DNA from: Collinsella aerofaciens
GTDB taxonomy: Bacteria > Actinomycetota > Coriobacteriia > Coriobacteriales > Coriobacteriaceae
Assembly (NCBI RefSeq): GCF_020181355.1
Contig: NZ_CP084004.1
Span: 1,364,001 to 1,428,000 of the forward strand
Length of the DNA stretch: 64,000 nucleotides
Direction: 5' to 3'
In this document: positions 1,387 through 10,741 of the stretch, piece by piece
Layout: every line of letters starts with the position of its first letter
How positions within the stretch are numbered: the stretch's first letter is position 1
Translations under genes and position numbers: made by a program
Notes under the pieces: model-generated
Seen by the model: the letters and a program-made list of their open reading frames with translations, nothing else
The model's database searches: none
What the model was told of the DNA's origin: nothing

Positions 1387-3294
1387 ATGGAACAGATTAT
1401 CTTGAACATACTCGAGGCTCTGCATCACGGCGAGACCGTGGACGACAAGGCGCTCGTCAAACTGATACATGCCGAGGCGCGCCGTGAGGGTGCCGACAAA
1501 CGCGATTTGGCCAAGCGCCGTCTGCTGCCGTTCTACCAGCGGGTTAAACGTGAGGAGCCGGCTCGGTGGGCTACGTGGAATGTCGATTCCGATCTGGAAC
1601 GCCAACTGCTGCAGGTGCTACGCATGAAGCCGCGCCGCACGGCTTCGGGCGTGGCGACCATTACCGTTATCACCAAGCCCTGGCCATGCTCGGGCGATTG
1701 CCTATTTTGTCCCAACGATCTGCGCATGCCCAAGAGCTATCTGCACGCTGAGCCGGCGTGTGCCCGTGCGGAGCAAAACTGCTTCGATCCGTATCTGCAG
1801 GTGAGCGCTCGTCTGACCGCGCTTTCGCAGATGGGGCATGCGACCGACAAGATAGAGCTCATCGTTCTTGGTGGTACCTGGAGCGACTATCCACAAGGGT
1901 ATCAGGCATGGTTTATGTCGGAGCTCTTCCGTGCACTCAATGATGATGCGGTGGCGGGCGTGGCGGCCAACCCCATGTTGGCGCGTCCGGGCATCAGCCG
2001 TGCCGAGGCGGGGCGTCTGCTCGATGACGCTCCCGCCGATGCCCTGCCGCCGGTGGTAGTAGAGCGCCGCGAGCGCTATCGGGCCGCCGGCATTGCGACA
2101 GACGAGGCTGAGCTTGCTGCCGGCGTTGCCGACGAGCAGGAGCGTGTGGATGCTGCCGTGGGTGGCTATAACCGCGCGGTGCGTCGTCTGTACGGCCCTG
2201 GTACGCCGTGGGGTGAAGTTGCCGAGTGGCAGATGGCAACGATGGAGGAGCTTGAGCACCAGCAGCGCATCAACGAGACGGCGAAGCATCGTGTGGTGGG
2301 GCTCGTTATCGAGACGCGCCCCGATGCCGTAACGCCGCAGACCCTCACGCTCATTCGCCGCCTGGGCTGCACCAAGATTCAGATGGGTATCCAGAGTCTC
2401 GACCAGCACCTGCTCGATATCAACGAGCGTCGCATTTCGGTGGCGCAGATCGAGCGGGCGTTTTCGCTTGCGCGCTTGTTTGGCTTTAAGATCCACGCGC
2501 ACTTTATGCTCAACTTGCTGGGCGCCACGCCCGAGGGGGACAAGCGCGACTACGAGCGCTTTATGACCGAGGGGGCCTTTATGCCCGACGAGGTCAAGGT
2601 CTACCCGTGCGCGCTCATCGAGGGCTCGCGTCTGGTGGGCCGCTATGAGCGCGGCGAGTGGCGCCCCTATACCGAGGAAGAGCTGCTCGATGTGCTGGCC
2701 GACGACATCGTGGTGACGCCGGCGTTCTGTCGCATCAGCCGTATGATTCGTGACTTTAGCTCCGACGACATTATGGTGGGCAACAAGAAGCCCAACCTGC
2801 GCCAGCTCGTTGAGAACCGCCTGGCTGCTCGGGGTGATGGTGCGACGGTGCGTGAGATTCGCTATCGCGAGATCAGCACGGCGGGTGCCGACCTGGACGA
2901 GTTGACCCTTGACGAGGAAGTGGCGTACGAGACGCCGGTGACGCGCGAGCGCTTTTTGCAGTGGGTGACGCTCGAAGGCAAGATCGCCGGCTTTTTGCGC
3001 CTGTCGTTGCCCGATCGTGCGTTTGTTACCGCGCACGCAGACGAGTTGCCGACGACGCCGGACGAGGCAATGATTCGCGAGGTGCACGTGTATGGCATGG
3101 CGGCACGTGTGGGCGATCAGGGCCAGGCGGCTCAGCATCATGGGCTGGGGCGGTCGCTGGTGGAGCGCGCCTGCGAGATTGCCCGGGATGCGGGCTATAC
3201 GCGCATCAACGTGATTAGCGCGATCGGTACGCGCGAGTACTATCGCCATTTGGGTTTTTATGACCACGGACTCTATCTGCAAAAGGAGCTCTAG
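1387..3294 (+). CDS. elp3: Elp3-type tRNA uridine(34) modification enzyme (radical SAM plus GNAT)
   Basis: The 635-residue protein has an N-terminal helical tRNA-binding region, a radical SAM core with a cysteine triad C101, C105, C108 in PCSGDCLFCPND, and a C-terminal GNAT acetyltransferase domain (about 540-635) with the acetyl-CoA loop QHHGLGRS. Elp3 uses acetyl-CoA and SAM to form the carboxymethyl group at C5 of wobble uridine in tRNA. In eukaryotes it works in the Elongator complex; bacterial and archaeal homologues act alone. The start is the ATG preceded by GGGGAC. The next gene begins immediately after the stop, so the two are probably cotranscribed. Confidence 0.92.
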   Translation: MEQIILNILEALHHGETVDDKALVKLIHAEARREGADKRDLAKRRLLPFYQRVKREEPARWATWNVDSDLERQLLQVLRMKPRRTASGVATITVITKPWPCSGDCLFCPNDLRMPKSYLHAEPACARAEQNCFDPYLQVSARLTALSQMGHATDKIELIVLGGTWSDYPQGYQAWFMSELFRALNDDAVAGVAANPMLARPGISRAEAGRLLDDAPADALPPVVVERRERYRAAGIATDEAELAAGVADEQERVDAAVGGYNRAVRRLYGPGTPWGEVAEWQMATMEELEHQQRINETAKHRVVGLVIETRPDAVTPQTLTLIRRLGCTKIQMGIQSLDQHLLDINERRISVAQIERAFSLARLFGFKIHAHFMLNLLGATPEGDKRDYERFMTEGAFMPDEVKVYPCALIEGSRLVGRYERGEWRPYTEEELLDVLADDIVVTPAFCRISRMIRDFSSDDIMVGNKKPNLRQLVENRLAARGDGATVREIRYREISTAGADLDELTLDEEVAYETPVTRERFLQWVTLEGKIAGFLRLSLPDRAFVTAHADELPTTPDEAMIREVHVYGMAARVGDQGQAAQHHGLGRSLVERACEIARDAGYTRINVISAIGTREYYRHLGFYDHGLYLQKEL

Positions 3295-4173
3295 ATGAAC
3301 AAGCCAAGTGTTTCTGCTGGTGTCGTTGCCGGCGTTGCTTTGGGAGCCGCGGCGCTTGGTGCGGCCGCCGTCGCTGTTCGTGCTGCCTGTCTGCAGGTTG
3401 CGCGAACCCGCAACGGGTTGGCGCGCGTAAAGCGCATGCACGACGAGGGCGGTGACGAGGTCCGTGTGCTCGTGCAGGGCGGTGTCTACCAAAGTGCGAG
3501 TTACGTTGGCGAGCGCTGGGCGGAGCCCGTCTTTGCGTACTATCGCGCGTTTGACGATGTGTTTGAAGCCGAGGACGCAATGCGTGATGCTTATGGTCAC
3601 GGGATCGACCGTATGCTTATGCTGGGCGGCGGTGGGTTTGCCTATCCCAAGTTCGCGCTGATGTCGCACGAGAGCTTGCGCATGGACGTCATTGAGTACG
3701 ATGCCGAGATTACGCGCCTGGCGCGCCGCTGGTTCTACCTAGACGAGCTGGAGCGCGCGGCGGGCGATCGCCTGCGGGTGATAACCGCTGAGGCTCGCTC
3801 GTATTTGGGTGTGACGAGCGTGGGCCATCGTCGCTACGACGTGGTCGTGAGCGATTGCTTTGGCGGTGCCGAGCCCGTGCGCGGGCTGGCGACCGTTGAG
3901 GCGCTGCGCCTGGTGCGGGGCAGCCTGAACCCCGGGGGTATCTACGTGGCCAATATCGTGAGCGCAAACGAGGGGAGCGATGTGACGTTCCTGCGCGACT
4001 GTGCCGCCACGGCGCTTGAGGTGTTCGACCATGCTTGGGTGGTCCCCTGTGGCGATGCAGAGTTCGGCGGCGAGGAGAATTATCTGCTCATCGCCAGCGA
4101 CGGCGACTACGCCTTTGCCGAAGCCGTGCCTTTTGACGCCGACTTCCTTGGCACCGTCCTTCACGACAAGTAA
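3295..4173 (+). CDS. Spermidine-synthase-like class I SAM-dependent methyltransferase, membrane-tethered
   Basis: The 292-residue protein begins with a hydrophobic Ala/Gly/Val-rich segment (about 8-33), probably a membrane anchor, followed by a Rossmann-fold domain with the glycine-rich motif MLGGGGFAYPK and the acidic loop DVIEYDAEI. This resembles the spermidine synthase/spermine synthase fold. Many such stand-alone proteins are annotated spermidine synthase without proof, so polyamine synthesis is unproven. The ATG directly follows the elp3 stop, and the ribosome site AAAAGGAG lies inside the end of elp3. Confidence 0.75.
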   Translation: MNKPSVSAGVVAGVALGAAALGAAAVAVRAACLQVARTRNGLARVKRMHDEGGDEVRVLVQGGVYQSASYVGERWAEPVFAYYRAFDDVFEAEDAMRDAYGHGIDRMLMLGGGGFAYPKFALMSHESLRMDVIEYDAEITRLARRWFYLDELERAAGDRLRVITAEARSYLGVTSVGHRRYDVVVSDCFGGAEPVRGLATVEALRLVRGSLNPGGIYVANIVSANEGSDVTFLRDCAATALEVFDHAWVVPCGDAEFGGEENYLLIASDGDYAFAEAVPFDADFLGTVLHDK

Positions 4174-4199: not shown

Positions 4200-6644
4200 T
4201 TAGGCGTGGTCGCGCCAGCCGAGAACGCGCTGCTTCATACCCTCGATGTCGAGCACGCTTTCGGCAAAGCCCTTGCGCACGAGCTCTTCGGGAACAAACT
4301 CGTCGTAGCGGTCAAAGTAAGGCACCTCGCCGGGATAGACGAGCTCGATGGGATCGAAGTCTTTCTCGGCCTCGGCGGCGAGCACCTCAAAGAACGCCTC
4401 CTCGTCGGCCTTCATCTTAAACTGCATAAAGTACGGGCGTGACGGGTCGAGTCCGCGAAGGCCCAGCTCCGCGGCACACTTAATCTTGAGCATGCGCTCG
4501 AGTGCCAAAAAGGCGTAGCTGCCCAGCCAGGGGAAGAGCACCCAGGTGTCGCCACCCAGGTTAATGAGCGGCTTAGTTCCCGCGCCCGAAATCTCGGCTG
4601 TATGGCGAGCCTGCGCCAAGCGGGCCCGCGCGTTACCCATAAGGTACGGATATGCCGCGTGCTCGTTGAGCGCTTTACGCATGCGTTCGAGCACATGCGT
4701 GTTGATGTCGCCGGGGCAATCGCCAAAGTAGGCCGGCACACGACCTTTGACTTGCGTGGCAAAGACGGTATGGCGCTTCCAGTCCACTTCCTCGACAATC
4801 CAGCAGTGTCCGGCGATGGCGATGCGCTCGCCGGGCGGTGGCGGATTGACGATTGTGCCCAACTCGGCCGACTCGCTGCGGACGGTGAACTCCTCGTTTT
4901 CCTGGAACACGGCGTAGAACTTAAAGTTGTTAATGATGCGTTCGCCCGCGAGGCCCACAATGAGCCCACCGCCCTCGGCGACCTGGATATGGTCGATCTT
5001 GATGAGGTGGCGCAGCAACACGCGATAGTCATCGGCCGAGACGCGATGGAAATAACTGAGCGTGAGTACGCGCTGGGCAAGCTCTGCCGGCGTGAGTTCG
5101 CCGGTGCTGGCAAGCGTCGACATGGTCTGGTGATAGAGCAGACTGTAGGGGAGTCGATCGAGCTCAGGCGGCTCGACCCACTTTTCCTCGCGATAGAGCT
5201 GTACGAGCGCGATGCCCTGCAGGAGCTTCCACGGAATGGTCTCGGGCATCATCGTGCGCGGCTCGGGCTCTTCCTCGCGCATGACGAACCACATCTCGGG
5301 TGGAAGATCGCGGCGTCCCGTGCGGCCCATACGCTGCAAAAAGGAGCTGACGGTAAACGGCGCATCGATCTGAAACGCACGTTCCAGACGGCCGATATCG
5401 ATGCCGAGTTCCAGCGTGGAGGTGGTGACGGTTGTCTGCGCCTGCTCCTCATCGCGCATGAGTTCCTCGGCCGTCTCGCGCAGCGATGCCGAAAGATTGC
5501 CGTGGTGGATGAGAAAACGGTCGGGCTCGTGCCGGCTCTCGCAGTAGCTACGCAGCATGGAGCATACGGCCTCTGCCTCCTCGCGCGAGTTGGCAAAGAC
5601 CAGGCACTTGCGGCCGCGGGTGTGTTCGAAGATATAGCCCATGCCGGGGTCGGCGTTGTCTGGTGCTGTGTCGGTGGGGTTGAGAAGCGCCTGCTCGGTC
5701 GCTCGTGGGATGTCGACTTCGCCCTCGGGGGCCGAGGAAGTTTGGCGGTCCTTGGGAGCGGCCTTGCCCCGTGCCCGCTCACGACGTTGACGGCGCTCCT
5801 CTTGTGTGAGCTGTCCGCTGTGACGCATGTCTTGGGCGCCGGCGGGCAGTGTCGCGGATGCCGCCGCCTCGATGCGCTCGCACGCAAGCACTTCGGCCTC
5901 TTGAGGACCCGTGCTCTCGAATCCCCGCTGCTGTGCCTGGGGACCCGAGTTGTAGAAGTGCTCCATGGAGATGCGCCACACGTGGCGCGGTTCTTCAAAG
6001 CGGGGGATAACGCAGTCGCGCCCCGTTCCCTGTGAGAGAAAAGCGCCCGTGCGCTCGGGGTCGCCGATGGTGGCAGAAAGGCCGATGCGGCGGGGCTGCA
6101 CGCCCGCCATGCGCGAGAGGCGCTCAATAAGGCAGAGCGTCTGACCGCCGCGGTCGCCGCGCATGAGCGAGTGGACCTCATCGATGACCACGTAGCGCAG
6201 GTCGCAAAACATGCGCGGAATCGCCATGTGCTTATGGATCAGGAGCGCCTCGAGTGACTCGGGCGTAATCTGCAAGATGCCGCTCGGTTTTTTGATGAGC
6301 TTAGCCTTGTGCGACTGCGAGACATCGCCATGCCAGTGCCAGACAGGGATATCGGCTTCTTCGCACAGATCGTTGAGGCGGACGAATTGGTCATTGATGA
6401 GCGCCTTGAGGGGGCCAATGTAGAGGGCGCCCACGCTTGCGGGCGGGTTCTCCCAAAACTCGGTCAGGATGGGAAAGAAGGCTGCCTCGGTTTTGCCGGA
6501 AGCCGTGGATGCCGTCAGGAGCACATTATCTTGCGTGTTAAAGATGGCATCAGCTGCCGCAACCTGGATAGAGCGCAAGCTCTCCCAATCGTGGGAGTAG
6601 ATGAAGTCTTGGATAAACGGGGCGTAGCGGTCAAAGGCGTTCAC
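4200..6644 (-). CDS. sngC: Lhr/BrxHI-like DEAD/DEAH helicase, Shango SngC candidate
   Basis: This superfamily 2 helicase is about 814 residues long. Motif I is TASGKTEAA-like near residue 48, motif II DEVH is at about 155-158, LSAT near 190, and the motif VI-like RMGRTGRR lies in the second RecA lobe, followed by a long Lhr-type C-terminal region. A charged, low-complexity linker of about 90 residues separates the lobes. The start is taken at GTG 6644 because AGGAGG sits four bases upstream; the longer TTG start would overlap that site. It is the last gene of a TerB-domain / ATPase / helicase operon. In Shango such a helicase is SngC, and it is also related to BREX BrxHI. Confidence 0.85.
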   Translation of the reverse strand: MNAFDRYAPFIQDFIYSHDWESLRSIQVAAADAIFNTQDNVLLTASTASGKTEAAFFPILTEFWENPPASVGALYIGPLKALINDQFVRLNDLCEEADIPVWHWHGDVSQSHKAKLIKKPSGILQITPESLEALLIHKHMAIPRMFCDLRYVVIDEVHSLMRGDRGGQTLCLIERLSRMAGVQPRRIGLSATIGDPERTGAFLSQGTGRDCVIPRFEEPRHVWRISMEHFYNSGPQAQQRGFESTGPQEAEVLACERIEAAASATLPAGAQDMRHSGQLTQEERRQRRERARGKAAPKDRQTSSAPEGEVDIPRATEQALLNPTDTAPDNADPGMGYIFEHTRGRKCLVFANSREEAEAVCSMLRSYCESRHEPDRFLIHHGNLSASLRETAEELMRDEEQAQTTVTTSTLELGIDIGRLERAFQIDAPFTVSSFLQRMGRTGRRDLPPEMWFVMREEEPEPRTMMPETIPWKLLQGIALVQLYREEKWVEPPELDRLPYSLLYHQTMSTLASTGELTPAELAQRVLTLSYFHRVSADDYRVLLRHLIKIDHIQVAEGGGLIVGLAGERIINNFKFYAVFQENEEFTVRSESAELGTIVNPPPPGERIAIAGHCWIVEEVDWKRHTVFATQVKGRVPAYFGDCPGDINTHVLERMRKALNEHAAYPYLMGNARARLAQARHTAEISGAGTKPLINLGGDTWVLFPWLGSYAFLALERMLKIKCAAELGLRGLDPSRPYFMQFKMKADEEAFFEVLAAEAEKDFDPIELVYPGEVPYFDRYDEFVPEELVRKGFAESVLDIEGMKQRVLGWRDHA

Positions 6645-6727
6645 GGGGCCTCCTCTCAAATACGAACCTCTTAACGCGGTGAGCAGTGGCTTGCCGCATC
6701 ACTGCCTCGACGTTTGCCCAGATAAAG

Positions 6728-6760
6728 CCTGCCAAAATAAACCTGTCCCTTTTTGGCGGG
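6728..6760 (-). repeat. Hairpin between sngB and sngC
   Basis: CCTGCCAAAA (6728-6737) pairs with TTTTGGCGGG (6751-6760) around a loop containing the complement of GGGACAGG. It begins directly after the sngB stop codon and lies in the only gap (116 bp) of the operon. It has no proper T-run on the minus strand, so it may be a partial attenuator, an mRNA-stabilising stem or a REP-like insertion. Confidence 0.5.
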
Positions 6761-8065
6761 TTAGATGGTGAATTCGGCGAAATTGCGGTCGCCGCTTGCG
6801 GTGCCGGTGTCGCCTGTTGCTGTTGCCGGCGCCAGCGCGTCGCCGCCGACGCTTTGCAGTAGCTCGGCCACGTTGGCGTCGGGGTTTTGGCATAGGATGT
6901 CGAGCAGCTCGATAAAGTCACGAATGACCTCACGCGGCGTCAAGTGCGTATCGGCTCCCACGCGGCCAAACTCAATCCTGAGAAAGTCCACCAAGTCGTT
7001 CTCGGTAAGCGTGGGCGTCCAGCCAAAGTAGCCGGCATGGATCTGCATGAGTTTTTCGATGAGCACCAGCAGCTCCTCATAGGTGAGTGGCTGCAGACGA
7101 ATGATGGGCGCGAGCATGTCCTTAAGGTCCTCGCGCGCAAAACGGCCCTGAGCGAGTCGGCTGCGCAGGGCCTCGTAGGAGAACACGCCGCGGCGACGGT
7201 CCTCGATGGAGGTTGGCGTGCCACCCATGATCATGCCCAGGTACTGCGCCTTGCCCTGGAGCGTGTCGTTGTACATGGTCAGGATCTTCTCGTAGTTGTA
7301 CTGGCGCGTAATGGCGTTGGGAATCTTATACAGATTCACGAGCTCGTCGATGAGCACCAGCATGCCCTTGTAGCCACTGCAAACCAAAAAACGCGCGATG
7401 AGTTTGACGTAGTCGTACCAGTCATCGTCGCTGATGATGGTTGAGGACCCCAGTTCGGCGCGAGCCTCGCTCTTGGTGCGGTACTCGCCGCGAATCCATT
7501 TGGTCACGCGGCTCATGGCTTCTTCGTCGCCCTCGGATACGGCCGTGCGATAGCGGCGGAGCATGCGGGTGAAGTCGAAGCCGTGGACCATTTCCTCGAG
7601 CGGGGCCAGTTGGGCATTGACAACCGACTCGTCGACGTCGGCGTACGAGGCGACCCAGCGATCAAGAATAAGGTTGAGCGCACCGCCCTCGGGGCGCGTC
7701 TTGGTCGATATATTGCGTATGAGCTCGCGGTAGGTGGCAAGGCCCTGCCCCTGCCCGCCCTGCAGACGGCGCTCGGGGGATAAGTCTGCATCGGCGACGA
7801 CGAATCCCTCACCCATGGCGTGCGTGCGGATGGTCTGGAGCAAAAAGCTCTTGCCGGCGCCGTAACGACCGACCAGAAAGCGGAAGCTCGCACCACCGTC
7901 GGCGATGAGACTCAGATCGGTGAGCAGGGCGCGGATCTCGACCTCGCGCCCTACGGTAATGTAGGGAAGGCCGATGCGCGGGACCACGCCGCCCTTGAGC
8001 GAGTTGAGAATGACGGCAGCGACGCGCTTGGGCACGCGGGGTGCTGCGGATGCGGTATCACTCAT
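6761..8065 (-). CDS. sngB: BrxD/DUF2791-type P-loop ATPase, Shango SngB candidate
   Basis: The 434-residue AAA-like ATPase has Walker A GRYGAGKS at residues 66-73 and Walker B MLVLIDE at 235-241. The layout (an N-terminal IGLPYITVGRE segment, then the P-loop, then an all-helical C-terminus with a RLAQGRF region) matches the DUF2791 / BREX ATP-binding family. Its ATG overlaps the end of the upstream TerB gene by 8 bp, showing tight coupling. Together with a TerB-domain protein and a helicase this matches the Shango defence locus, where the ATPase SngB is required for protection. No signal peptide or membrane helix is seen, so it should act in the cytoplasm. Confidence 0.87.
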   Translation of the reverse strand: MSDTASAAPRVPKRVAAVILNSLKGGVVPRIGLPYITVGREVEIRALLTDLSLIADGGASFRFLVGRYGAGKSFLLQTIRTHAMGEGFVVADADLSPERRLQGGQGQGLATYRELIRNISTKTRPEGGALNLILDRWVASYADVDESVVNAQLAPLEEMVHGFDFTRMLRRYRTAVSEGDEEAMSRVTKWIRGEYRTKSEARAELGSSTIISDDDWYDYVKLIARFLVCSGYKGMLVLIDELVNLYKIPNAITRQYNYEKILTMYNDTLQGKAQYLGMIMGGTPTSIEDRRRGVFSYEALRSRLAQGRFAREDLKDMLAPIIRLQPLTYEELLVLIEKLMQIHAGYFGWTPTLTENDLVDFLRIEFGRVGADTHLTPREVIRDFIELLDILCQNPDANVAELLQSVGGDALAPATATGDTGTASGDRNFAEFTI

Positions 8066-9818
8066 GGTCTAGGTATCCTCTCACGTCTGCTTCGTAGTCC
8101 TCAATAATCTGCGGCCCTGCCGCGCTAAATTCAATTACGGTGTCGCCCACCAGGTCAAAGAGCGCCTCGTTGATGGTATCGACGAGCATGTCCTCGCTCT
8201 GTCCTGAGTGCGCCACTGCCGATGTCGCTTGCGCTGCGTTTTGCTCGAGCAGTGCGCGAAGGAAGGCATCTGCGGCGGGCGCGAGTTCGTTTGTGGCGTC
8301 AGCGGGCGCAGCAGCTGCGAACGCGGGCGTCGGCGCGAGAAGCGGTGCCACGACACCAAACTGTTCGGTGGATATGGTCGGCTCGTCGGTCAAGTCCTGC
8401 CGAATGGGTGCCACGACCGGTTCGACAATCACGTCGGTCGCAGGCTCGGCTTCCGGTTGCCATGAGTCCGCTGCCTCAGCTTCTGCGGACGCGCTGTCCT
8501 CGCGTTCCTCGTCGATTAAAAGCGCTTCGCGCGTTTGCGCAGCGGCGTTCCGAATGTGCCCCAGCTGACTCAGATCGATATCGATCTTGACGGGCTGGTG
8601 TGCGGCGTCCCACGAAAGCCATGCCACAATCTCGTCATCGATAATCTTGGCCAGATATTTGGGGACCTTTTCTTCCTTAAGGGGATGGGCGGGGTCCAGC
8701 GCCAGGCGCAGGCGTTGGTCGCAGGCGCGCATCATTTCACCGAGCTTGCTGCTCTTTTGCCTACTACCGTGGATACGCATGCATTCCCAAAAGCCGTTTT
8801 GGCAACGGTAGATATGGATAGGATCCAGGCGGTATTCGCAGTCCTCGTGGCGCTCGGGCGCAAAGAATACGGCCGAGGCAAACATGGTGTAGGGCATGGC
8901 CGTCTCCTCCCCAAATAAGCTCGCCACGATGCCGGTCTTTCGGTGCGTGTCATAGTAGCGCGCCATACGGACATACACGGCGCACGCCACGTGGCGCAGA
9001 TCGCGGTGGTAGCTGCGGTCGAGCCGCGAGTTACTTAGGTTGTACGCGGAGAGGGCGTTGATGGCGGCCATGAGTCGCTCCTCGCGCACCTCATCGGGCG
9101 GAAGGGGGAGCGTGGGCTCGGAGGTTTTGCGACGCTTAGGGGTCTGGCCGGACGGTGCTGGCGCTGGCACAAGGTCTCGTGCGGCGCGTCGCAGCTCGAT
9201 AAGGGCGTTATCGAACATGACGGTTTTAGAGTCACGAAGCAGCTTGGGGTCGAGCCCATGGAACACGGCGTAATCCTGCAGCCACACGCGCGCAAACCGG
9301 TCGATGCCGGGCTCGAAGGCGCGATAGACATCCCAAAAAGCCTTGATCTTGTTAAAACCATCGAGCGGATTATCTACGCCAATGCCGCAAATCAGCTCAT
9401 AGAGATACAGAAAGGCAAAGGACGTAGACGTTTCCTCGACGGTTCCGCGACGCACTTGGGCACGCCAGGTAAAGTAGCCGCGCAACTGTCGATCGCTCAT
9501 GGCATTGTAGGTGGGAAAGTACGACTTAAAGGTGCCGTTGTAGGGGCAGTCGTCCTCAAAGTCGGCCATCAGTAGGCCTTGGCGGTAGAAAAGCTCGGCT
9601 TCCGAAAGCCAGCGACCCGCGCCGCCCTCGGGGTCTTCTTGCCAACGCGATATCTCACGCATCTTGCGGTATTGGTCGGGGAGGAAGTTCTGCATCTGTC
9701 GGCCGGTCTTGAGAATCGGCTCGTCTGCGTAGACTTCATGTGAGAAACGGGCGGACTGATGGGTCCGGGCCTCGGCCATAATGCGCTCGATGAGCATCTT
9801 GATGTCCTGGTCGGCCAC
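8058..9818 (-). CDS. sngA: TerB-N/TerB-C domain protein, Shango SngA candidate
   Basis: This is the first gene of the operon: 586 residues, GTG start preceded by GAGAGGAGAAGCG. Residues of about 30-230 carry a TerB-N-like region (WLSEAELFYRQG, YNAMSDRQLRGYFTWR, FAFLYLYELICGIG). The C-terminal part (about 440-586) resembles TerB-C, ending with NEALFDLVGDTVIEF and a final EDYEADVRGYL. An acidic Ala/Pro-rich linker joins the two. TerB-N/TerB-C proteins have been linked to DNA-processing stress or defence operons, and in Shango the TerB-like protein is SngA. Despite the name, there is no tellurite-resistance (terZABCDE) cluster nearby, so a role in tellurite resistance is unlikely. Confidence 0.85.
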   Translation of the reverse strand: MADQDIKMLIERIMAEARTHQSARFSHEVYADEPILKTGRQMQNFLPDQYRKMREISRWQEDPEGGAGRWLSEAELFYRQGLLMADFEDDCPYNGTFKSYFPTYNAMSDRQLRGYFTWRAQVRRGTVEETSTSFAFLYLYELICGIGVDNPLDGFNKIKAFWDVYRAFEPGIDRFARVWLQDYAVFHGLDPKLLRDSKTVMFDNALIELRRAARDLVPAPAPSGQTPKRRKTSEPTLPLPPDEVREERLMAAINALSAYNLSNSRLDRSYHRDLRHVACAVYVRMARYYDTHRKTGIVASLFGEETAMPYTMFASAVFFAPERHEDCEYRLDPIHIYRCQNGFWECMRIHGSRQKSSKLGEMMRACDQRLRLALDPAHPLKEEKVPKYLAKIIDDEIVAWLSWDAAHQPVKIDIDLSQLGHIRNAAAQTREALLIDEEREDSASAEAEAADSWQPEAEPATDVIVEPVVAPIRQDLTDEPTISTEQFGVVAPLLAPTPAFAAAAPADATNELAPAADAFLRALLEQNAAQATSAVAHSGQSEDMLVDTINEALFDLVGDTVIEFSAAGPQIIEDYEADVRGYLDHE

Positions 9819-9906
9819 CGCTTCTCCTCTCCTAACGCAGCTTCGGTGACCTCATATCATAGCACAGCATCAAACAGGTGTTCGAGATACTGCTGCGTAG
9901 ATAGAT

Positions 9907-10623
9907 TTAGAACAGGAGGGCGTAGATGACGGCGATGACGACGGAGGGGAGCATATTGGCCGTGCGGAAGGTCTGAGGACGGATGAGGTTGACGCCGACG
10001 CAGAAGATGAGCATGGAGCCTACGAGCGAAAGGCTGTCGAGGGCTGCCGTAGTCATGATGGGGGAGAGTGCGCCGGCAAACAGCGTGATCGTCCCCTGGA
10101 ACACGGCGACGGGCAGGGCGGAGAAAATGCAGCCGCGGCCAAGCGACGCCGTCATGGTGCAGACGATGATGCAGTCCAGCGCGCCCTTGAGGGCAAGCGT
10201 GGACCAGTCGCCGAGCAGGCCGTCCTGGATCGATCCCACAATGGCCATGGCGCCGATACACACGGTGAGTGAAGTCGAGACAAAAGCGTTGGTGAACTCG
10301 TTATCGCCCTCGCTGCCGGTTTTGCGCTTGAGCCATTCGCCAAGGTTCTCAATGGCGGCCTCCAAGTTGATGGCCTCGCCGATGAGCGAGCCGAGGGCGA
10401 ACGAGACAATGAGCATGGTGGTGCCGGTGGTCGCTAGCGCCTTCCCATCGATAAGGAGCATCTTTTGCATGGTGCCGCCAAGGCCGATAAACAGGACGCA
10501 CAGCCCCGATGCTTTCATGAGCGTGTCTTGGATGCGCGGTGTGATGAAGCGGCCGCCCGCTAATCCCAAAAGACCGCCCGCAACTAAAAGCACAACGTTG
10601 ATGATTGTTCCCAAGCCCGGCAT
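9907..10623 (-). CDS. DUF554 family membrane protein
   Basis: This is a polytopic membrane protein of 238 residues with about six or seven hydrophobic helices and repeated glycine-rich turns such as GGLLGLAGGRF and FIGLGGTMQ. It matches the DUF554 (YdfK-like) family of uncharacterised possible transporters. The start is set at the internal ATG 10623, because AGGAGGG precedes it by three bases and the protein then begins at the first conserved helix. It lies alone between the Shango-like operon and the surface-protein cluster, transcribed in the same direction as both. Confidence 0.85.
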   Translation of the reverse strand: MPGLGTIINVVLLVAGGLLGLAGGRFITPRIQDTLMKASGLCVLFIGLGGTMQKMLLIDGKALATTGTTMLIVSFALGSLIGEAINLEAAIENLGEWLKRKTGSEGDNEFTNAFVSTSLTVCIGAMAIVGSIQDGLLGDWSTLALKGALDCIIVCTMTASLGRGCIFSALPVAVFQGTITLFAGALSPIMTTAALDSLSLVGSMLIFCVGVNLIRPQTFRTANMLPSVVIAVIYALLF

Positions 10624-10741
10624 GAGCCCTCCTGTATTGATGCCAACGTGGCAATCGTAGCAGAACGAAATGCGAGGCACATCGCGACTCATCTAATACG
10701 TTATATAAGTGGTGTTAGGAATGATGTGCAGCATTTAAGCC

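Follow-up and report, generated by a model that had tools for sequence, protein, structure and literature searches.

Comparison with the list of open reading frames confirmed the coordinates and the order of three genes in the window, i.e. the whole 64,000-nucleotide stretch of Collinsella aerofaciens DNA analysed here, which code for a TerB-domain protein, an ATPase and a helicase and which we call sngA, sngB and sngC (Table 1). The initial annotation had described the first two genes as overlapping by 8 bp, and they do so at positions 8058-8065; sngC starts about 100 bp beyond sngB. The genes on either side are of other kinds. PADLOC returned no match for seven of the eight flanking proteins scanned, and the eighth, the spermidine-synthase-like protein, matched a methyltransferase profile with 25 bits. 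A defence-island or mobile context, which is usual for Shango loci without being part of their definition, was found neither in these flanks nor in the inserts that separate the genes in relatives (see below).

Table 1. Genes and predicted regulatory elements at the sng locus, in positions of the window.
Feature	Position	Strand	Length	Description
sngA	8058..9818	-	586 aa	TerB_N/TerB_C protein; winged-helix-like domain modelled for the last ~80 residues
sngB	6761..8065	-	434 aa	BrxC/BrxD-family P-loop ATPase; GAGKS Walker A, DE Walker B
sngC	4200..6659	-	819 aa	Lhr/BrxHI-like SF2 helicase; motifs intact
Predicted LexA (SOS) box CGAACACCTGTTTG	9871..9884	-		Upstream of sngA
Candidate -10 element TATGAT	9856..9861	-		Just 3' of the LexA box; putative -10 role
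DUF554 gene	9907..10692	-		Flank, upstream neighbour of the sng genes
Spermidine-synthase-like gene	3295..4173	+		Flank, convergent neighbour
elp3-like gene	1387..3294	+		Flank; radical SAM/GNAT tRNA-modification gene

The gene order, the protein families and the profile scores are those of Shango, as the initial annotation had recognized. Against the PADLOC Shango profiles, for which no cut-off is printed, SngA scored 258 bits, SngB 562 bits and SngC 915 bits, far above the best BREX scores of 133 bits (BrxD, for SngB) and 409 bits (BrxHI, for SngC). Pfam analyses assigned TerB_N (113 bits) and TerB_C (60 bits) to SngA, BrxC_BrxD (PF10923, 498 bits) to SngB, and DEAD (93 bits) and Helicase_C (66 bits) to SngC, and revealed no nuclease domain in any of the three proteins. 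Regular expressions applied to the homologues bore out the claim of intact Walker and helicase motifs: GK[ST]F is present in 81 of 81 SngB proteins and the Walker B pattern in 78, while among 70 SngC proteins motif I was found in 67, DExH in 69, motif III in 65 and motif VI in 69. The structural model of SngA (mean pLDDT 81) is helical in its N-terminal and middle regions, where some strands also occur, and closes with a winged-helix-like part, the fold match being weak. The solved structures nearest to SngC by sequence are the Lhr-type helicases 5v9x and 7lhl and the YprA protein 6znp, and the match spans the first helicase domain.

The Collinsella trio therefore shares its three families and their order with the Shango systems of Pseudomonas aeruginosa PA14 and Escherichia coli. 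However, the latter are patchily distributed sets found in hotspots, islands or plasmids, whereas the trio is near-universal in its family, often split, and accompanied by LexA boxes. The likeness to BREX consists in the membership of SngB in Pfam BrxC_BrxD and in the relatedness of SngC to BrxHI; SngB reached only 134 bits against the BrxD equivalog cut-off of 350 in NCBIfam, and neither pglZ, pglX nor any other BREX gene was detected among five flanking proteins scanned with Pfam or eight scanned with PADLOC. Likewise, SngC has its nearest solved relatives among the MrfA/YprA and Lhr repair helicases but lacks a Pfam match to DUF1998, and no MrfB-like partner is coded for among the flanking proteins scanned. 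SngC-type helicases are reported to cluster with BrxHI, DruE and DpdJ (PMC12278908), DruE is described as a YprA-like helicase (PMC13192584) and Shango is located in E. coli islands (PMC11096173).

Distribution and descent of the trio

We take the window's family to be the Coriobacteriaceae, its sister family the Atopobiaceae, and a third family of the class presumably the Eggerthellaceae. SngB is present as a single copy in each of 41 of the 43 genomes of the genus; the two misses are a genome in which sngA runs into a contig end (G026, L087) and one that is 72% complete (G032). Of 296 genomes in the class sample, 123 gave a SngA match, 37 of them belonging to the genus and 15 to the rest of the family. 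Since the list is ordered by kinship and the genomes shown without a match begin with other families, we read this as presence of SngA in 52 of the 52 family genomes of the sample, a few matches being partial at contig ends. With a threshold of at least 393 bits, 64 of 65 family genomes contain a SngC orthologue; the one that does not, G305, is 85% complete. As controls, the type I restriction domain HSDR_N was found in 28 of 65 family genomes, and Cas1 in 17 family genomes of an equal-sized class sample, weak matches counted. Beyond the family, SngB was found in 106 of 140 genomes and 19 of 35 genera of the sister family, and in 15 of 138 genomes of the third family, or 13 when two weak matches (18-24 bits) are set aside, incomplete genomes being included in both counts. 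Its absence from 34 of the 140 and about 125 of the 138 genomes implies that SngB is dispensable there.

Elsewhere, Shango is patchy in its occurrence and mobile. Using a Klebsiella sngB-sngC query at 80% cover, which divergent alleles may escape, we detected Shango DNA in 469 of 5,426 E. coli genomes. SngB relatives are present in 684 plasmid records; for 541 of these the plasmid is typed as conjugative, and all 684 copies fall below 60% identity (50.6% for the best-ranked). Only six SngB loci were confirmed in a viral collection queried with two peptide patterns. The trio also occurs on Paenibacillus and Arthrobacter plasmids, and Gram-positive Shango is therefore not peculiar to the Collinsella genome. 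Among the plasmid loci, the Klebsiella plasmid pKP308-2 (L142) exemplifies the mobile form, with the operon lying between IS5-type transposases near silver-resistance genes and an ATPase/UvrD-like pair, while on a Sulfitobacter plasmid (L144) genes annotated as coding for an SMC-family ATPase and SbcCD subunit D lie immediately 5' of the Shango operon.

The sng genes are often split by other genes, yet retained. In the 41 genus genomes, sngB and sngC are separated by less than 500 bp in 23 and by 0.7-9.7 kb in 14, and lie on separate contigs in 4. In two of the latter (G015 and G016) the genes are clearly unlinked, as both lie far from contig ends, while the separation in G028 and G035 may reflect assembly breaks. 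The chromosomal neighbours of the sng genes are common to many genomes. Pfam scans of ten of the 99 candidate open reading frames in the inserts identified Fe-hydrogenase-like, NMT1-type binding, ABC transporter, methyltransferase-like, M13 peptidase, LytTR regulator, MFS transporter and acyltransferase proteins. PADLOC scans of 20 insert proteins left 17 without a match, and the profiles hit by the other 3 were generic ones for ATPases or methyltransferases. In a C. tanakaei-like genome (L101, 9489-13914) the insert consists of an Fe-hydrogenase-like protein gene on the opposite strand and an NMT1-type/ABC transporter pair; the sizes of the open reading frames at L081, L090, L096 and L098-L100 resemble those of this insert, suggesting that it recurs between sngB and sngC in genomes of this type, its domains being those checked in L101.

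The trio is under strong purifying selection and descends mostly vertically. Protein distances correlate with those of alanyl-tRNA synthetase (AlaRS) with r = 0.86 for SngB (78 genomes), 0.81 for SngC (67 genomes) and 0.83 for SngA (77 genomes), values equalled in none of 500 permutations for any of the three proteins. In the sister family alone the correlations are lower (0.73, 0.70 and 0.63 for SngB, SngC and SngA, respectively), and the flanking genes elp3 (r = 0.97, 32 genomes) and DUF554 (r = 0.95, 29 genomes) track AlaRS more closely than the sng genes do. The rate of divergence of SngB and SngC is about as low as that of AlaRS, with mean distances of 0.261 for SngB and 0.265 for AlaRS. 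A tree of SngB and SngC in which the family forms one clade was not rejected (p-AU = 0.544), and its likelihood was slightly above that of the tree found initially. The single-gene SngB and AlaRS trees conflict in places, and outgroups attach by very long branches. In three sister-family genomes (G120, G157 and G228) AlaRS falls inside the window's family and the neighbours of the window's sng genes are common to all three; exchange between the two families through these genomes is possible.

In 20 genomes of the C. aerofaciens group, the median pairwise dN/dS was 0.041 for SngB, 0.043 for SngC and 0.116 for SngA, compared to 0.033 for AlaRS, 0.063 for Elp3, 0.064 for DUF554 and 0.093 for SpeE. 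None of the 25-codon windows of the three genes (0 of 113, 0 of 82 and 0 of 159) had a pN/pS above 1; the highest, at 0.75, lies within the disordered linker of SngA, which is the least constrained subunit (pN/pS of 0.58 in this fast linker). Presence in nearly all species, in one copy and with mostly vertical descent, places the trio in the core genome of the window's family. The initial annotation had weighed whether the trio might be present in all relatives as a fixed operon, and as far as presence is concerned this is so, the genes being found in practically all family genomes. For this family, the data do not support a reading of the trio as an acquired defence cassette, given the near-universal distribution, the mostly vertical descent and the LexA boxes described below.

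LexA boxes at sngA and at separated sng genes

The 88-bp gap upstream of sngA contains the motif CGAACACCTGTTTG (9871-9884, minus strand) followed by TATGAT, a hexamer absent from the output of our promoter scan. In 19 sequences of the C. aerofaciens group, 13 of the 14 positions of the box are invariant, as are 34 of the 36 bp of the block formed by the box and the putative -10 element, compared to 30 of the 52 remaining positions of the gap. The exact pattern CGAACRNNYGTTYG occurs at seven distinct sites in the 2.28-Mb genome, three of which precede lexA, recA (both products confirmed by Pfam) and sngA. The reversed control pattern is equally frequent, and the case for SOS control therefore rests on position and conservation rather than on rarity. 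The other exact sites (L310, L311, L312 and L314) lie near an AbiEi-antitoxin-like gene, an ABC transporter/GyrI-like pair, a gyrB-like gene and a phosphate transporter gene; some may mark further SOS genes and some may be due to chance. The lexA promoter of the window's genome (L315/L339) apparently carries two boxes, CGAACATTTGTTTG and AGAACGAATGTTCG.

All of 30 lexA promoters, each from the family, and 27 of 28 parsed recA promoters, six of them from the family and the others from elsewhere, contain a box with no more than one mismatch; these are the best matches to the consensus, two recA loci not being parsed. From 23 distinct lexA and recA boxes we built a matrix and applied it to positions -200 to +60 with a threshold of 10 bits. 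It detected a box at sngA in 49 of 53 sequences of the family. The count was 7 of 20 for the sister family, 2 of 3 for the third family and 0 of 2 for two more families; the single Paenibacillus sequence also has a box, which brings the total to 59 of 79. Hits at control genes amounted to 0 of 31 for elp3, 0 of 29 for DUF554 and 2 of 44 for speE, and to about 1% for shuffled sequences. The sngA box thus matches the lexA and recA boxes of the same lineage, and resembles the CGAAC-N4-GTTCG-type boxes of Gram-positive LexA regulons, which Collinsella carries at lexA, recA and sngA. These observations suggest that sngA belongs to the LexA regulon and would be bound by LexA and induced by DNA damage.

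Boxes also occur where the other genes stand apart. In the sister family, sngB carries a box in 10 of 10 cases when at least 50 bp from sngA and in 0 of 10 when closer (P = 10−5, Fisher's test; this and the following P values are indicative only, since species are not independent). Counted by genus, the figures are 5 of 5 and 0 of 9 (P = 5×10−4), one genus appearing on both sides. In the same family, sngC has a box in 4 of 5 cases when separated and in 0 of 12 when adjacent. In the window's family, 16 of 28 sngC genes have a box when at least 250 bp from sngB or unlinked, compared to 2 of 31 when closer (P = 3×10−5). The 12 separated genes without a box in the strict window lie mostly 0.4-1.2 kb from sngB, and in a post hoc tally a box was present at about 14 of 18 sngC genes that are unlinked or at least 1.2 kb away, versus 2 of 10 that lie 0.25-1.2 kb away, a pattern that would fit continued read-through from sngA into close copies. 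Each of the two clearly unlinked sngC genes carries a box (AGAACATATGTTCT in G015, and one in G016). A perfect AGAACATATGTTCT box also lies at the unusually distant position of about -406 to -410 of sngC at L388, L386 and L101 (G040, G035 and G041), which suggests a small extra gene or a long leader before sngC. In total, a box accompanies at least one sng gene in 70 of 77 genomes, or in 74 after a post hoc widening of the window; G036, G211 and G232 have none at any sng gene, even in the wide window.

In 52 of the 69 nearer named loci, sngA has a box at the strict threshold, the misses being mostly of the Olsenella type. Nine distant named loci from metagenome-assembled genomes comprised five with 11.9-16.9 bits, three of which are of Bacillota type (12-14 bits), and four with less than 9 bits. 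With taxon-appropriate consensuses, no SOS box was found at the E. coli, Klebsiella, Sulfitobacter, Azospirillum and Arthrobacter loci or at one Paenibacillus locus, and another Paenibacillus Shango has an 18-bit box at -161. SOS control therefore appears to be a feature of the Collinsella-type form, and perhaps of some Bacillota, but not of Shango generally. Our literature search, which left most subscription papers outside, retrieved no report of Shango genes as SOS targets, and a search for Collinsella with 'defense systems' and DefenseFinder returned nothing.

Alternative explanations and possible function of the trio

We consider it likely that the three proteins form a complex of the Shango family, the genes of which have become part of the core chromosome in the window's family, are inherited for the most part vertically and belong to the LexA (SOS) regulon. 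The mobility of Shango elsewhere, with its 684 plasmid records and 541 conjugative-typed plasmids, could instead point to repeated acquisition of a mobile cassette in each species, but this is highly improbable: the chromosomal neighbours are identical in many genomes, the distances follow those of AlaRS, a one-clade tree is not rejected, all plasmid copies fall below 60% identity and only six SngB loci were found in the viral collection. Repeated acquisition is thus largely refuted for the window's family. It is also improbable, if somewhat less so, that the box is a chance palindrome or that of another regulator and the SOS link spurious. Such a view could draw on the exact pattern being as common in the genome as its reversed control, but a matrix trained solely on lexA and recA boxes finds a box at 49 of 53 sngA promoters of the family against about 1% in shuffles, boxes recur at separated genes, and within the box 13 of 14 positions show no variation, compared to 30 of 52 in the remainder of the intergenic stretch.

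Two further explanations share the core and SOS parts of our reading and differ from it on function. The trio could be a true anti-phage system that has merely been fixed in this lineage, its SOS expression responding to phage DNA or to an induced prophage and its function being wholly defensive. This is rather doubtful, although Shango lowers the plating of many phages 10-100-fold in P. aeruginosa PAO1 (PMC10250203), the SngC-type helicases group with BrxHI, DruE and DpdJ (PMC12278908), and SngA is the least constrained subunit, with its fast linker. Universality, dispersal and slow evolution set the trio apart from the restriction and CRISPR genes of the same family, none of the 25-codon windows exceeds a pN/pS of 1, and the insert proteins either lack a PADLOC match (17 of 20) or have generic ATPase or methyltransferase matches (3 of 20). 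Conversely, the trio could be a pure DNA-repair module resembling MrfAB, with no effect on phages in the family and with mobile Shango as a derived immune branch, a view that we hold to be just as doubtful. LexA boxes like those at recA and lexA, the core distribution (SngC in 64 of 65 genomes) and the kinship of SngC with the Lhr and YprA/MrfA helicases all speak for it, and the YprA family offers a precedent: a preprint (PMC12458937) divides YprA-type helicases into separate repair and defence branches and assigns MrfAB a role in mitomycin repair. Against it, the tree gives no direction of evolution, as the outgroups attach by very long branches, and the absence of SngB from many sister-family and most third-family genomes speaks against an indispensable role in repair.

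Returning to the core, SOS-linked complex that we favour, its standing job would be DNA maintenance, with control of phages or prophages as a second or shared role. We know of no established mechanism for Shango. We propose a loader-translocase complex that is induced by damage and acts on branched or single-stranded DNA. Damage to DNA, or a fork that has stalled or broken, whether the cause is internal to the cell, a phage or an induced prophage, would lead to RecA filaments and to self-cleavage of LexA, the loss of which would free the box at sngA and often also that at sngC or sngB where these are separate. SngA, with its TerB-type domains and winged-helix-like end, and the SngB ATPase could then form or load a platform that puts the SF2 translocase SngC onto branched or single-stranded DNA, which SngC would strip or unwind, presumably in the 3'-5' direction by analogy with Lhr. 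A defence role may exist in Collinsella too, because anti-phage activity of Shango has been published for P. aeruginosa (PMC10250203).

More tentatively, and with less confidence than in the core and SOS reading itself, we suggest that Shango was or became an SOS-regulated DNA-maintenance machine, of which the Coriobacteriia form could be a standing surveillance complex that also restrains prophages and phages upon RecA activation, and the mobile proteobacterial form a relative that has escaped control by LexA. Many of the split copies would be missed by defence callers that require an adjacent trio. A lineage in which the system is core, slow-evolving and apparently wired to the SOS response offers a direct handle on the mechanism of Shango: its substrate is probably DNA that is damaged or being replicated, and a phenotype in damage survival could be looked for there without any phage. 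Independent testimony to a continuing joint action of the three genes comes from the boxes at separated genes, and the trio provides a natural case on the border between repair and immunity.
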